From: Flagellimonas spongiicola
Lineage (GTDB): Bacteria > Bacteroidota > Bacteroidia > Flavobacteriales > Flavobacteriaceae
Assembly: GCF_023502425.1 (NCBI RefSeq)
Contig: NZ_JAMFMA010000001.1
Location: 744,001-808,000, forward strand
DNA: 64,000 bases
Reading direction: 5' to 3'
How positions within the stretch are numbered: position 1 is the stretch's first letter; each line of letters begins with the position of its first letter. The position numbers were made by a program, and so were the translations under genes. Below are positions 57,324 through 62,308 of the stretch, in pieces. The notes below the pieces were generated by a model. That model did no database searches. It was not told the DNA's origin and was given only the letters and a program-made list of their open reading frames with translations.

Positions 57324-57971
57324 CTAATCCAAAAGGAAGAAATCTTCCTTGCTCATGGATTTTGATTCCAAAGAATAAATCATCGCATCTTGCTGTGGCC
57401 CCTCGTCGAAATAGAGTCCCCAATGATCAAAATAGTTGGGGGCATCAGCTTCAGACCCCATGGCATTGGATGGAGATTCCTCGTAAACAGACACAAAAAT
57501 CTCGTACGGCATTTCCGTAAGACCTTTTGTGATGTACACAAAGTGTTCACTGGTACTATTGATAATGGCACCTAGTTGGTCTGGAACGCTGTAGTCAAAT
57601 ATCCTGCTTACAATAATGGAGGTGTCCTTAAAGTGAAGGGATAACTCGGCAATATCAATATTACCTCCATTCTTTTCACTCAATTCTCCAAATGCAGTAT
57701 CAAATGAGGATTTCCCTTTGTCATTACATGCAAGTCCACCCCAGTCCATGGTATTGAAATAGTGCAGACCCTCGGTAAGCCCAAAATTGCATGAAATGTC
57801 GAGGATTAAGTCGGTTCTTTCTTTTTCTGTGTCGTATTGACACGTAATTGTAACTTCTGCAAAGAAATCCTTTTCTAGGATTCTCGAGAATTCATCTAGT
57901 CCTTCTGCTGTTACAAATGACCTTATACCAGCAAGGGGGAATATGATGTTGGATCGTTTTTGGTATGGCAT
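57324..57971 (-). CDS. Hypothetical protein, no recognised family
   Basis: A 215-residue soluble, acidic protein with no signal peptide or membrane segment. It reads as alternating strands (AEVTITCQYDTEKERTDLILDISCNFG, FVYITKGLTEMPYEIFVSVYEE) and ends with an acidic tail. I recognise no motif. A good -7 element lies 26 bases upstream. It is a single gene between glyA and the two-component pair, and has no obvious partner. Confidence 0.7.
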   Translation of the reverse strand: MPYQKRSNIIFPLAGIRSFVTAEGLDEFSRILEKDFFAEVTITCQYDTEKERTDLILDISCNFGLTEGLHYFNTMDWGGLACNDKGKSSFDTAFGELSEKNGGNIDIAELSLHFKDTSIIVSRIFDYSVPDQLGAIINSTSEHFVYITKGLTEMPYEIFVSVYEESPSNAMGSEADAPNYFDHWGLYFDEGPQQDAMIYSLESKSMSKEDFFLLD

Positions 57972-58145: not shown

Positions 58146-58814
58146 TTAAATGAAACCTCGGTTTTTAGCGGCCAAAATTAGCGCAAGATCATTCTCATTC
58201 TCGGTACCGAACAAGGTTTTCATATGCCTTTTTCGATTTTCTATTGAAGAAGGTGACAAACGAATGTGTTTTTCCAAATCCTTGTTTTTGGTTCCTACTG
58301 ACAAGTGATATAGAATTTTCTTATCCTTTTCATCCAGGTCAATATCGTTGCGGAGTTTTTTACGGATTGCTCCCAACGCCTTAGACGAATAATAAGGCGG
58401 ATTTAAGGTAACGGTCTTTACTGCATCTTCCAATGTTTTAGGGTCGATGTCGTTTTTGATTAAATAGCCATCCGGGTCTACGGACTTTAAAATGCTATTA
58501 ATTCTAAAGTTGTCGCTAAACGAAGACATAAAGATAATTTTGGTTTCTGGAACCAAACGTCTGGCTAATTTTCCTAGGTCTTCTCCGGAATGTGGCTGTT
58601 CCTCATTGGGCGGAAACAATTGTACATCCAAGAACAGGATATCATATTTAAAAGAATCAACCGATTCCTCTATCATTCGTTTTCCCAATTCATAAGAATT
58701 GGCGGTATCAACAATAATGGAATACCCTTCAAAAACTATGCGTTCCAGGATAAATTTATATCCCAGCATGGTCATTTCATGATCGTCTATTGTAAGTATT
58801 CTAAGCGTACTCAT
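58146..58814 (-). CDS. NarL/FixJ-family response regulator
   Basis: A 222-residue regulator. The receiver is intact: IDDHE, phospho-acceptor D in ILFLDVQLF near residue 64, Ser in FMSSFS and Lys in YLIKND. The C-terminal LuxR-type HTH is KILYHLSVGTKNKDLEKHIRLSPSSIENRKRHMKTLFG. It follows the TPR kinase gene by 18 bases and is presumably its partner. An 18-base GGGG/CCCC hairpin lies in the 174-base spacer beyond it, but it is poorly placed as a terminator. Confidence 0.92.
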   Translation of the reverse strand: MSTLRILTIDDHEMTMLGYKFILERIVFEGYSIIVDTANSYELGKRMIEESVDSFKYDILFLDVQLFPPNEEQPHSGEDLGKLARRLVPETKIIFMSSFSDNFRINSILKSVDPDGYLIKNDIDPKTLEDAVKTVTLNPPYYSSKALGAIRKKLRNDIDLDEKDKKILYHLSVGTKNKDLEKHIRLSPSSIENRKRHMKTLFGTENENDLALILAAKNRGFI

Positions 58815-58832
58815 GTTTTGTTGTTTAAAGAT

Positions 58833-60926
58833 TTAGGCGTTTACAGTTTCTGTTTGCTCTTCTAAATTGATTTTTGGACGAACGTATCTGGCTGGGATTT
58901 TCACTAGTACTTCGGTACCTTTTCCTGGTTCACTTACAACTTGAAGGTTGCCCCCAATTTTTTCCGCTCTTGATGCCAGGTTGCGCATTCCAATACCGCC
59001 TTTTCCTTTTTTGACTACAAAACCGACACCATCGTCCTGTATGGTCAAATACAGCATACCTTTGTCTAAGGAAAAATTGACCTGCATATGTTTGCATTGT
59101 GCATGTTTTACACTGTTTTTCAGTGATTCTTGTACAATGCGATAGGAATTGATCTTGATATCACCTTCCAAGGCATCCCATTCCACGTCATCCTCATAAT
59201 TAAAAGAACATTTCACTCCTGAGGACTTTTCCGTGGTGTCTACCAGTTCCTTCAGGGAAACGATAAAATTATAAAATTTTTCGTACGAGGAGTTGTTCAT
59301 TTCATGGGAAATTGTACGAATTAAATCCTCCACTTCCTGTAATCTGGTTAGGTTCTTGGCACGCAGTTCTTCGGCTTCCTCGCTCTTGTCTGCGTTTAAA
59401 CCACTTAGGAACAATCGTATGCTGAGCATTTCGCTCAAAACACTGTCATGGAGTTCTTCGGATACCCGTTTCTTTTCAGTTTTCTTACCCTCCTCAAATT
59501 TGCCTTGTTGTGAAAGCATGAGATTATAGATCTCGTTGTTGGCTTTCTGTTGTTTTTGTTGGAACTTAAGTCTGTTGTTACTTACCCGTTGTGCCAAAAT
59601 GATGTAAATGGCCACCCCTGCAAAGAGTAGGGCAAGGGCTACCATGGTCCAGATGAATTTGTCCCGGGTCAAGGTTTCATTGCGCGCAATGACCTGATCG
59701 GTCTCCAAACGGATACGCGCGAACTTGTCCCGTGTTGTGCGCTCCTCTTCTTTAATGACTTCACTTAGATCATAAAAGGCATCAGAATAAGCGACAGCAT
59801 TTTCGGTATCAATATGGGTAAGTAAACGGAGTAGTTCTAAATGATGAAAGTTGTTATTGGCGGCTATGGCAATGTCCAGGCCTTCTTTGGCTTGAAGTCT
59901 TGCGTTGATCGTATCGCCTTCTGCAGCCAATACTTCGGCATAGTACTGCTTCCCTCTGGCATAATCATCATTGAATACTTCCGATTCCTCAAAACTAATA
60001 AGTGCCTTATTCAATAATTCCTTGGGTTCATTTGTATCATTTTTGCCTTTGAAAATGGAATAAGCCAAACTTACCAATGCCATAGGATAAAGTTCTAAAT
60101 CCGTTTCATTCAAATTATGTTCGGCTATTAATTGTCTATATGCAATCTCCGCATCATAGAATCTAGATGTATCTAATAGAACATGGGCGATATTGTTTTC
60201 ATTTTGACGATATAGATCACTTTTATCTTTAATATTTAACTTTCTAATGGTTTCGCCTGCTTTGCTATAATATTCCAATGCAGATTCATAATTACCCATG
60301 TCACTGGTTATCATGCCCAACAAATTGTTACAATTGTAAATTCTTCTTTGATCCTTCAATTCAATGAACGTTCTCAAAGCTTCAGTGACACTTTGTTCTG
60401 CGCCTAGATAATCAATGAAGAAATTTTCAACAGAACCCATGCTGTAAAGAATTCTCGCCTTTAGCGATAACGCAGTGGAATCAGAGGGTAATGAACTGAA
60501 GCTTTTATATGCTTTTTGATAGTAGTAATAAGCACTATCCATTACTCCATATGAACGTTGGAAGGCGGCCATATCCCAATAAGATTCCCCTTCAGCTTTA
60601 TAGAGTTTGCTTTTGATCGCCAATTGCAGCACTTCTGCATTCATATTTCTAAAACCAAGAGAATCATCTAGCCGTTTATAAGCTAAGGAAATTCGGGATA
60701 AGTGATCTAGTTTTGTTGTGTCATTGCGTATTTGTAACGTCTGTGTTTTGGCCTCTTCCAAAAAGTGCGTACGCTGTTTGAAACTCAAATGCGCAGAATC
60801 CCTGCTGGCATCAATGAGGACATTGATGTTTTCGGCATGCGAATTCGATTCCGGATTGGAGGTTCCAGTACTATCCCCACAGGCCATTAACAATACAAAA
60901 AGAAATATGAAGTAACTGTATTTCAA
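58833..60926 (-). CDS. TPR-containing sensor histidine kinase with lipoprotein signal
   Basis: A 697-residue kinase. The N-terminus is a lipoprotein signal (LMAC, C16). Residues about 30-400 are tetratricopeptide repeats (ESYWDMAAFQRSYGVMDSAYYYYQKAYKSF, RIYNCNNLLGMITSDMGNYESALEYYSKAGETI), which should lie in the periplasm. One membrane helix (about 425-446), a coiled coil and the HisKA_3 kinase follow, with His in ELHDSVLSEM and an HATPase domain (GGIGMRNLASRA). Peptide or protein sensing by the TPR part is inferred. Confidence 0.9.
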   Translation of the reverse strand: MKYSYFIFLFVLLMACGDSTGTSNPESNSHAENINVLIDASRDSAHLSFKQRTHFLEEAKTQTLQIRNDTTKLDHLSRISLAYKRLDDSLGFRNMNAEVLQLAIKSKLYKAEGESYWDMAAFQRSYGVMDSAYYYYQKAYKSFSSLPSDSTALSLKARILYSMGSVENFFIDYLGAEQSVTEALRTFIELKDQRRIYNCNNLLGMITSDMGNYESALEYYSKAGETIRKLNIKDKSDLYRQNENNIAHVLLDTSRFYDAEIAYRQLIAEHNLNETDLELYPMALVSLAYSIFKGKNDTNEPKELLNKALISFEESEVFNDDYARGKQYYAEVLAAEGDTINARLQAKEGLDIAIAANNNFHHLELLRLLTHIDTENAVAYSDAFYDLSEVIKEEERTTRDKFARIRLETDQVIARNETLTRDKFIWTMVALALLFAGVAIYIILAQRVSNNRLKFQQKQQKANNEIYNLMLSQQGKFEEGKKTEKKRVSEELHDSVLSEMLSIRLFLSGLNADKSEEAEELRAKNLTRLQEVEDLIRTISHEMNNSSYEKFYNFIVSLKELVDTTEKSSGVKCSFNYEDDVEWDALEGDIKINSYRIVQESLKNSVKHAQCKHMQVNFSLDKGMLYLTIQDDGVGFVVKKGKGGIGMRNLASRAEKIGGNLQVVSEPGKGTEVLVKIPARYVRPKINLEEQTETVNA

Positions 60927-60975
60927 GTGAATGCGAATAAAATATGCGTATAATTGTTTTCTTTTACTACAAGGT

Positions 60976-61014
60976 AAAAAAAAAGCCCCAAACCCTAAGG
61001 GTTATGAGGCTTTT
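60976..61014 (-). terminator. Rho-independent terminator of the tiny-lipoprotein unit
   Basis: On the reverse strand AAAAGCC, AACCC, a TTA loop, GGGTT and GGCTTTTTTTTT form a strong two-part hairpin 19 bases past the stop at 61033. It separates the small genes from the kinase gene. Confidence 0.85.
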
Positions 61015-61032
61015 CAATACGTCTAATTTTTG

Positions 61033-61251
61033 TTATAATTCCCTATCGTCGTTAGCAATAAAAAATAAATCAGAATACCTTTTTGATTTTTGCAATCGAA
61101 ACTTTTCAGTTTTAATTGAAATGTGATCATCTGCAATCAATTCGGCATCACTACCTGTGTTTTCTTCATTTGTAGATTTATCAGTCGAATAACAACTTAA
61201 ACAAATCGTGCAACTCAAAATTAGAAAAGATCTTAAGGCTAGCGAATTCAT
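61033..61251 (-). CDS. Small lipoprotein, second of a pair (unknown function)
   Basis: A 72-residue protein starting MNSLALRSFLILSCTICLSC, a lipoprotein signal with C20. The mature part is polar and acidic, then basic (SIKTEKFRLQKSKRYSD), and ends FFIANDDREL. The frame is open to 61335, but only the ATG at 61251 gives a signal peptide. The gene follows its neighbour by 22 bases and ends before a strong terminator. No family recognised; being small, it could be chance, but the lipobox, spacing and terminator support it. Confidence 0.6.
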   Translation of the reverse strand: MNSLALRSFLILSCTICLSCYSTDKSTNEENTGSDAELIADDHISIKTEKFRLQKSKRYSDLFFIANDDREL

Positions 61252-61273
61252 GGAGGTTGATTTATTTTTCAAA

Positions 61274-61435
61274 TTAAGATCTATCGTCACCGTCAGTTTG
61301 TTTTCCTGTAGTGGAATCCTGATCCAAAGTTTCAAATAGTGCTTCAGTCTCGCTTACATCGCTCTCCGCTTCGCAAGAAAATAAACCCATAGTCATTACT
61401 ACTACTGCAAAAATACTTACAACCTTTCTCATCAT
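61274..61435 (-). CDS. Small lipoprotein, first of a pair (unknown function)
   Basis: A 53-residue protein: MMRKVVSIFAVVVMTMGLFSC is a clear lipoprotein signal (C21, or C20 if the second ATG at 61432 is used), followed by an acidic 32-residue tail (EAESDVSETEALFETLDQD) that ends DGDDRS. Acidic residues right after the cysteine resemble the surface-export signal of Bacteroidota lipoproteins, so surface display is possible. A TATCTTGG element (61474-61481) and three direct repeats lie upstream. Confidence 0.68.
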   Translation of the reverse strand: MMRKVVSIFAVVVMTMGLFSCEAESDVSETEALFETLDQDSTTGKQTDGDDRS

Positions 61436-61516
61436 CTTCGTGTTTTTTTGGTTAGAAAATTTGGTTAACGCCTCCAAGATATTCTGAGACCAAAAAAAGA
61501 TGAATCCCCCAGGCAA

Positions 61517-61572
61517 TGTTTTAGTATTTGCAGGGATTGTATTAGAATTTGTCTTAAAAGTGTAAGAATTAC
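61517..61572. repeat. Three direct repeats with 21-bp period, candidate LytTR-type site
   Basis: TGTTTTAGTATTTG (61517), TGTATTAGAATTTG (61538) and AGTGTAAGAATTAC (61559) are each offset by exactly 21 bases. The first two agree at 12 of 14 positions, the second and third at 9 of 14. They lie 82-137 bases upstream of the small lipoprotein start, just beside the LytTR gene end. A 21-base period is typical of LytTR sites. Confidence 0.55.
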
Positions 61573-61575
61573 ACT
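61559..61575 (-). terminator. Weak hairpin at the end of the LytTR gene
   Basis: AGTGTAA-GAA-TTACACT is a perfect 7-base inverted repeat with a three-base loop. On the reverse strand it is followed by TTTTAAG. It overlaps the LytTR stop codon and the third direct repeat, so it may be a weak terminator or an operator. Confidence 0.4.
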
Positions 61576-62308
61576 AATTATAGGTGTTTATTGCCGTTTT
61601 GGAGAGCATTTCCTTTAAATCCTCCACCTTTTCCTTATAGGTCTTGGAGAACGGCAGCTCGTCTTCGCGCTCGTTGCGCAAGGTGCAGATGGATTTGCCA
61701 AAGTTGATACGGCCCACGTACCGGCTATTCAGGATATAGCTTTGGTGGATGCGGATAAAACTGGCGGGTAATTGTTGTTCAAAAGACTTAAGGGTCTTAA
61801 AAGCACTGACCACATGGCCATCACGCATAAAGAAGTCCGTAGAATTGTTGTCGGATTTCAAATACATAATGTCATTGGTGTTCAAATACCTATAATCGTT
61901 GTAGGATTTGAGGCAGAGTGTTGCAGGCACAGTTTCTTTAGGGAACCGTTTGCGCAAGCGCAAAACTGTTTTCCTAACATCAAACTCGTTGTGCGGTAAG
62001 ACCCAATAGTCAAAGAAACCACTTTTAATAGCGTTGTATGCGTATTTTTTAGATTCGGAATATCCGATGATTATGGGGAGCGTATTCAAGAATTGATTGA
62101 GTTCCGTGACCATATGAAAGTACGCCATACCTTCCTGGTTCAGATTGATAAGTACAACGTCCGGAGAGAATTTGAGGATGGTGTTCAACCCATCTTCTGC
62201 ATCGGTTGCTGTACCCACACAACTGAAATCTTCGTACTCCCTCAGATAAAGCTGCAATTGCAGTTTTGAAGTCGCATTAGAATCGATTATGGTATAGGTG
62301 TAATCCAT
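61574..62308 (-). CDS. LytTR response regulator with degenerate receiver
   Basis: A 244-residue protein: receiver-like domain (1-120) and a LytTR DNA-binding domain (about 140-238; IMYLKSDNNSTDFFMRDG, FIRIHQSYILNSRYV). The receiver has lost key residues: N55 stands at the phospho-acceptor position (VVLINLN), the acidic pair is D9-S10, and the switch Thr and Lys are replaced (IIIGYS, YWVLPHN). It is probably controlled by something other than phosphorylation. No histidine kinase is directly coupled to it. Confidence 0.88.
   Translation of the reverse strand: MDYTYTIIDSNATSKLQLQLYLREYEDFSCVGTATDAEDGLNTILKFSPDVVLINLNQEGMAYFHMVTELNQFLNTLPIIIGYSESKKYAYNAIKSGFFDYWVLPHNEFDVRKTVLRLRKRFPKETVPATLCLKSYNDYRYLNTNDIMYLKSDNNSTDFFMRDGHVVSAFKTLKSFEQQLPASFIRIHQSYILNSRYVGRINFGKSICTLRNEREDELPFSKTYKEKVEDLKEMLSKTAINTYN

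Follow-up and report, generated by a model that had tools for sequence, protein, structure and literature searches.

The DNA analysed here is a 64,000-nucleotide (nt) window from Flagellimonas spongiicola, in which positions 58146–62308 carry five minus-strand genes encoding a LytTR-type regulator, two small lipoproteins (lipoprotein 1 and lipoprotein 2), a tetratricopeptide repeat (TPR) sensor histidine kinase and a NarL-type response regulator (Table 1). A sequence-only reading had described these genes as lying side by side, with a pseudo-receiver in the LytTR protein, direct repeats upstream of a separate transcription unit for the lipoproteins, two lipoprotein tails that both end near DDR, and a periplasmic TPR sensor behind a lipoprotein signal. 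It proposed that the kinase might sense these small products or peptides derived from them by cleavage, with their expression under the control of the LytTR protein. All five open reading frames (ORFs) were found at the positions given beforehand, neither small ORF matched a Pfam family, and each of the structural features listed was recovered in the comparisons below.

Table 1 Features of the locus and the evidence for each
Feature	Position	Strand	Evidence
LytTR-type regulator, degenerate receiver (N55)	61574..62308	-	Pfam LytTR 1.1e-15, Response_reg 6.2e-07
Direct repeats AATTCTTACA / AATTCTAATA / AATACTAAAA, probable LytTR operator	61519..61570	-	Footprint, 69 + 36 loci
Lipoprotein 1, candidate peptide precursor, 52 aa, lipobox FSC	61274..61432	-	71/73 genus genomes
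Lipoprotein 1 C-terminal module DSTTGKQTDGDDRS	61277..61318	-	Tail Arg 67/67, Asp/Glu two before 63/67
Lipoprotein 2, candidate second precursor, 72 aa, lipobox LSC	61033..61251	-	57/67 genus loci
Lipoprotein 2 C-terminus FFIANDDREL	61036..61065	-	Asp/Glu C-5 56/57, Leu/Met C-1 53/57
Intrinsic terminator between precursor genes and kinase	60976..61013	-	Hairpin -17.5 kcal/mol before T-run; 67/67 genus loci
TPR sensor histidine kinase, 697 aa, apparent TTG start	58833..60926	-	Lipobox, one transmembrane helix, TPR_12, HisKA_3, HATPase_c
Kinase TPR superhelix, residues 29-372, candidate peptide-binding domain	59811..60842	-	AlphaFold2, pLDDT mostly >90
Kinase transmembrane helix, residues ~422-449	59580..59663	-	Hydropathy peak
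NarL-type response regulator, acceptor motif LFLD intact	58146..58814	-	Pfam Response_reg, weak GerE

Probable operator, terminator and small precursors within the genus

The order LytTR, lipoprotein 1, lipoprotein 2, kinase, regulator is maintained across the genus (Flagellimonas/Allomuricauda/Muricauda). Two of its 73 genomes, the drafts G002 and G041 (completeness 98% and 95%), are without lipoprotein 1 and are also without the LytTR gene and a full-length kinase, indicating that the unit behaves as one; 11 further genomes of the family without lipoprotein 1 are likewise without this LytTR gene. Loss of the unit as a whole is consistent with the pairing that the sequence-only reading had proposed.

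The LytTR receiver is degenerate. In an alignment of 19 orthologues, the phosphoacceptor position is Asn in nearly all and Asp in locus L220, and in g162, a large genus, also of Flavobacteriaceae, that is presumably Flavobacterium, it is Glu. Thus, with Asn at this position in nearly all of the loci that we term type A (LytTR upstream, see below) or Glu in g162, the LytTR protein is unlikely to be the phosphorelay partner. The NarL-type protein retains the acceptor Asp, its gene follows the kinase gene in nearly all loci inspected, and it is the probable partner of the kinase. The unit therefore combines an exported TPR sensor, HisKA_3 and HATPase_c domains and a NarL-type partner gene, as a TPR-HisKA_3 two-component system does.

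Between the LytTR gene and lipoprotein 1 lie three direct repeats, starting at 61570, 61549 and 61528 and spaced by exactly 21 bp, a better order than had been described. Direct-repeat sites of the LytTR type are expected to have this spacing. The repeats are the best-conserved part of an otherwise variable spacer at 69 loci, covering nearly the whole genus, and at 36 loci from other genera, and g162 shares the 3 × 21-bp layout with a different core. Judged from this pattern, they are probably the LytTR operator of the peptide gene. At the other end of the precursor genes, folding identified an intrinsic terminator ahead of the kinase at every genus locus (67/67) and at 34/35 other loci, compared to expectations from shuffled sequences of 0.2 and 0.15, respectively. 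This conserved terminator indicates that the precursor genes are transcribed separately, as a short unit. Scanning the window for generic promoters and terminators gave no more than background; the conserved terminator came from folding.

Lipoprotein 1, for which an alternative start is possible one codon upstream (61435), is under purifying selection, with a median ratio of nonsynonymous to synonymous substitution rates (dN/dS) of 0.33, and this ratio and the conserved length led us to reject a non-coding or spurious ORF. Lipoprotein 2 is under weaker constraint (median dN/dS 0.71); a spurious ORF was rejected here as well and we regard it as coding, though the evidence is weaker than for lipoprotein 1. 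Its body is hypervariable and its lipobox is gone in many species, yet its C-terminus is retained. As judged with a simple sequence pattern, both precursors carry a hydrophobic Sec signal, which across the family mostly includes a lipobox.

The window tails are single modules that end DGDDRS in lipoprotein 1 and NDDREL in lipoprotein 2. The tail Arg of lipoprotein 1 lies 1–8 residues from the end, and the lipoprotein 2 ends have Arg at C-3 in 56/57, a count that is partly by construction because the ORF picker demanded an Arg near the end; unfiltered locus lists show the same motif. As an acid-x-Arg tail is maintained genus-wide in both small proteins, chance likeness of the two tails was rejected. 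Candidate tail or module peptides of the family include TDGDDRS, ANDDREL and SVDGDDVPTDRR.

Pairing of precursor and kinase across Flavobacteriaceae

A profile built from lipoprotein 1 and used to search for relatives recovered ~60 strong ones, all inside Flavobacteriaceae, and no convincing relative outside this family. Weak matches in other families (E ~1e-6 to 1e-3) probably reflect signal-peptide likeness only and were not counted, and two matches without kinase or LytTR (L215 and L219) are probable false positives. A TPR histidine kinase starts 16–148 nt downstream of the lipoprotein 1 relative in 56/60 of these precursor-selected loci, with a NarL-type regulator after it in nearly all cases. 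The loci are of two types. Type A loci have a LytTR gene upstream and kinases 29–42% identical to the window kinase. Type B loci have no LytTR gene but a divergently placed gene of unknown family, and their kinases are only ~25% identical to that of the window. On the kinase tree the two types form separate clades, and since a lipoprotein of this family is paired with a TPR kinase in both, the pairing is either older than their split or was kept through it.

When loci were selected with a kinase profile instead, a small signal-bearing ORF lay immediately upstream of the kinase in 30/30 loci of type A and its sister groups. Other large ORFs, in regions fetched earlier, have such an ORF ahead of them in 134/965 cases by a crude test much like this one. 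The 30/30 count is the fairer kinase figure because the kinases in the earlier-fetched regions had been selected partly for the lipoprotein. Three kinases of other clades had no small signal-bearing ORF upstream. The small genes thus adjoin the kinase throughout the genus, in dozens of genera and also for a second clade of kinases, the arrangement in relatives on which the sequence-only reading had staked its proposal. We are highly confident that precursor and kinase are functionally paired. In 20 regions of related genera that were inspected, the recurring core consists of LytTR, precursor, kinase and regulator, and other recurrent neighbours look like housekeeping genes.

The gene divergent from type B lipoproteins encodes ~250–325 residues (L124, 368–1120; L127, 182–1159; L131, 1998–2930; L138, 388–1131) and had no Pfam match above threshold at these four loci; in type B loci it may correspond to LytTR. 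A form of ~250 residues also adjoins the type B lipoproteins of L186 and L189, together with a gene resembling an exported endonuclease/exonuclease/phosphatase-type protein.

Tandem modules in the precursors

Precursors of many lineages consist of a signal peptide and, after it, a single short unit repeated in tandem. The unit SVDGDDVPTDRRGS is present in ~8 copies in Zobellia russellii (L293), and other lineages carry STDGDDTPTDDRQ x5 (L196), STDGDDVPTDTRDS x6–7 (L207), TDDDDNPVVEREG x3 (L212), VATDDDEVGEPQPSNGE x5 (L221), CDDCAHDSDDRETLA x6 (L228, no lipobox), TFTGGGVDERDTEAT x3 (L232), ATDGDNIPKERRDPPPVMSDFQYNDNAV x6 (L309 and L316, Arenibacter, no lipobox) and DSPDGDDIPDIET x3 (L325). Genus g162 has the same LytTR-precursor-kinase-regulator order, and its precursors are unrelated in sequence but alike in build, with arrays of IIGAGATGGNKKVD x4, VSGSGAARSTKLD x5 and SGGNGGGTQVIGGNKKLDDYA... 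x5. The repeat state changed at least 13 times on a kinase tree with 152 rows. Arrays usually close with a unit at the C-terminus, which is where single-copy precursors hold their conserved tail, and DSTTGKQTDGDDRS of lipoprotein 1 reads as the single-copy form of the unit found in tandem in other genera. The simplest reading of these sequences is that the module is a functional element whose copy number often changes.

Two g162 members without an adjacent LytTR gene have a tandem of three small lipoprotein genes whose products end VETDPIIIPKKD, and a fourth precursor ending ILIIKND. Loci L339, L340, L358 and L359 show this arrangement ahead of the kinase, the fourth precursor being without a lipobox, and their four-precursor layout mirrors the lipoprotein 1/lipoprotein 2 pair of the window.

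In enterococcal sex pheromones a signal-peptide remnant is the active peptide, and the hydrophobic signal peptide of lipoprotein 1 could be such a pheromone, the tail having another role. This signal peptide (residues 1–20) is, unusually, about as conserved as the mature part, and its mean pairwise identity at the same loci is 0.63, compared to 0.32 for the kinase signal peptide and 0.21 for that of lipoprotein 2. However, the lipoprotein 2 signal peptide is not conserved, and the part that is amplified, and that lipoproteins 1 and 2 have in common, is the tail. We regard a signal-peptide pheromone as very improbable.

The lipobox is not a fixed property of the precursors. It was lost in L228, L309 and L316, where the repeat precursor is still secreted, and Maribacter loci have a secreted single-module form. 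Because several genera without a lipobox keep a secreted precursor, the label "small lipoproteins" of the sequence-only reading, which fits the lipoboxes of the window, is too narrow for the family. A CxxC pair stands in place of TDGD and the lipobox is gone in L284, L289, L291, L297, L302, L305, L307, L308, L312 and L313; CxxC-bearing precursors are mostly from Maribacter, plus L228. Their sequences suggest that the CxxC is a disulfide or metal site of the secreted form.

These cysteines also bear on the idea that the product is a multi-core ribosomally synthesized and post-translationally modified peptide (RiPP), or a metal-binding or antimicrobial product, governed by the adjoining regulators. 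RiPP precursors can have multi-copy cores, Maribacter and other genera have a Cys pair (CDDC) at the place of TDGD, and metal could be bound by acidic units that resemble TDGDD. We nevertheless consider such a product most unlikely, as in the 20 regions no modification enzyme or transporter recurs beside the precursor and nothing beyond LytTR, precursor, kinase and regulator belongs to the recurring core, though maturases may be encoded at a distance.

The TPR sensor as candidate receptor

All 42 kinase orthologues contain TPR_12, HisKA_3 and HATPase_c domains, and 38/42 have an N-terminal lipobox Cys. The lipobox and the single transmembrane helix, which divides the TPR part from the catalytic core, predict that the TPR part is extracytoplasmic. 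AlphaFold2 (42 orthologues) modelled a TPR superhelix with high values of the predicted local distance difference test (pLDDT), followed by a long helix that contains the transmembrane segment and then the kinase core. The closest solved folds are the TPR domains of LGN/Pins with bound peptides (Z ~29), followed by RapI (Z 26.6), NprR (24.9), RapH (23.5) and Rap-Phi3T with its pheromone (~21.5). The modelled sensor fold would thus be suited to peptide binding. The predicted kinase start is apparently TTG in most species of the genus (window 60924–60926; loci L238–L278); this conserved rare start, if real, suggests low kinase translation.

Gene order, co-inheritance and co-loss, conservation and repetition of the module, conservation of operator and terminator, and the predicted topology and fold of the TPR part are the observations on which a mechanism can be built. 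The degenerate-receiver LytTR protein would control a short transcript with its own terminator, which encodes one or two small exported precursors. The functional element of these precursors would be a C-terminal module of ~10–15 residues, in one copy or in tandem copies, with a consensus near ATDGDxxxxDxR in the window lineage and with DDREL ending lipoprotein 2. This module, either envelope-anchored or released by proteolysis, would bind the extracytoplasmic TPR superhelix of the adjoining kinase and alter phosphorylation of the NarL-type regulator. On balance, we favour the view that the locus is a peptide-ligand two-component system, and sequence and models together make the C-terminal module a reasonably likely ligand of the TPR domain. 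Signalling between cells is a more tentative proposal. We infer the binding itself, and also the sign of regulation, proteolysis, passage from cell to cell and the target genes. The earlier proposal that the products or cut peptides are sensed by the kinase, with LytTR controlling their expression, is supported, as far as comparison and modelling reach, by the tandem amplification of the tail, the LytTR-type operator and the LGN/Rap/NprR-like sensor fold.

Several points weigh against this mechanism. The main caution is slippage, by which tails of simple acidic sequence can expand; a single module with a plain-looking, acid-rich tail is common among the precursors, and one group of them has a poly-proline tail instead of acid-x-Arg. 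Lipoprotein 2 is confined to the genus and fast-evolving. Two type B lipoproteins from two genera (L186, 5945–6121; L189, 2064–2219) have no adjoining kinase. TPR folds are common and generic, and structural likeness does not by itself reveal function. Finally, among the 20 regions no dedicated gene for a protease, peptide transporter or exporter was found repeatedly next to the unit, which leaves detachment from the lipid anchor as a proposal.

The same absence of release machinery would fit a cell-autonomous role, in which the small lipoprotein would act on its own kinase as a regulated inhibitor or as a co-sensor, a feedback like that of CpxP, its tail binding the TPR domain without ever being an intercellular signal and its repeats only adding avidity. 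Most precursor copies are lipid-anchored, the kinase likewise bears a lipobox, and the precursor has its own LytTR-controlled transcript. What makes this role unlikely in our view is that multi-copy precursors with identical units look like propheromones and that the lipobox has been lost from secreted precursors, in repeat (L228, L309, L316) and single-module (Maribacter) form. Less likely again is sensing of envelope stress or export, modelled on NlpE or RcsF for Cpx and Rcs, in which an abundant surface or outer-membrane lipoprotein would stay periplasmic upon export failure and trigger the TPR kinase. This would account for the lipoprotein signal, the acidic residues directly after the lipidated Cys and the separately terminated transcript, but leaves the C-terminal modules of lipoproteins 1 and 2, their tandem amplification and the secreted, non-lipidated versions unexplained.

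The peptide-ligand system proposed here can be compared with RRNPP(A) quorum sensing of Bacillota, which includes Rap-Phr, NprR-NprX and PlcR-PapR (PMC10075063, PMC9765709) and has as its signature a small Sec-exported precursor adjoining a cytosolic TPR receptor of 250–500 aa (PMC10075063). In both, an exported small precursor adjoins a TPR receptor (56/60 and 30/30 loci here), the signal is often at the precursor C-terminus, and the sensor fold resembles RapI and NprR. However, the known receptors are cytosolic, ~250–500 aa in length and bind re-imported peptide, whereas the TPR domain here is predicted to be extracytoplasmic and is fused through a transmembrane helix to a histidine kinase. 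Since it is a histidine kinase of 697 aa, exported and anchored in the membrane, and comes from Bacteroidota, the candidate receptor is not an RRNPP member. The Bacillus phage propeptides Phr3T and Phr105, in which the pheromone is tandemly duplicated (PMC11343458), likewise have more than one pheromone copy per precursor and a TPR receptor as reader, but their receptors are cytosolic Rap proteins; here, there are up to ~8 units in many lineages, and the candidate receptor is a histidine kinase in a Gram-negative envelope.

Systems of the Agr/Com type (AgrA, ComE) also combine a precursor, a histidine kinase and a LytTR protein in one locus with a direct-repeat operator. By contrast, the LytTR receiver here is degenerate and not an evident phosphorylation partner, the partner is of the NarL type, the kinase sensor is a TPR domain and not polytopic in the membrane, and no AgrB- or ComAB-like processing exporter was seen in the 20 regions inspected. 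The degenerate LytTR protein and the different regulator set the unit apart from this type. The eukaryotic LGN/Pins TPR domains, whose fold is the closest solved one, bind extended peptides (NuMA, Inscuteable, Frmpd4), but sequence identity is ~14–18% and the comparison is one of fold only, implying no shared function; the literature searched held nothing usable on an LGN peptide consensus.

TPR-receptor peptide communication is known from Gram-positive bacteria, and Bacteroidota are abundant in oceans and guts. The literature searched, which left preprints and most subscription papers outside, contained no account of a Bacteroidota TPR kinase that goes with small lipoproteins or with peptide pheromones, nor a ligand for this class of sensor kinase, for which the locus offers a possible function. 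If the unit works as it looks, it would be a kind of peptide signalling that no paper in that literature describes for Bacteroidota or marine flavobacteria, and a Gram-negative type of peptide communication with an extracytoplasmic RRNPP-like receptor. The broadest version, a pheromone system widespread in Flavobacteriales in which multi-copy secreted or lipoprotein propheromones are cut to short, lineage-specific peptides that TPR histidine kinases sense outside the inner membrane, with the LytTR pseudo-receiver protein controlling production, is one that we hold to be possible but doubtful. Dozens of species offer paired candidate ligands and receptors, and as the ligand module can be read off the repeat units, ligand-receptor specificity, operator function and population behaviour are open to testing with synthetic peptides.

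Beyond the five genes, a 215-aa protein with no Pfam family is encoded after the regulator gene (window 57324–57971), throughout the genus and in some other genera (34–71% identity), and is a possible extra member of the unit.

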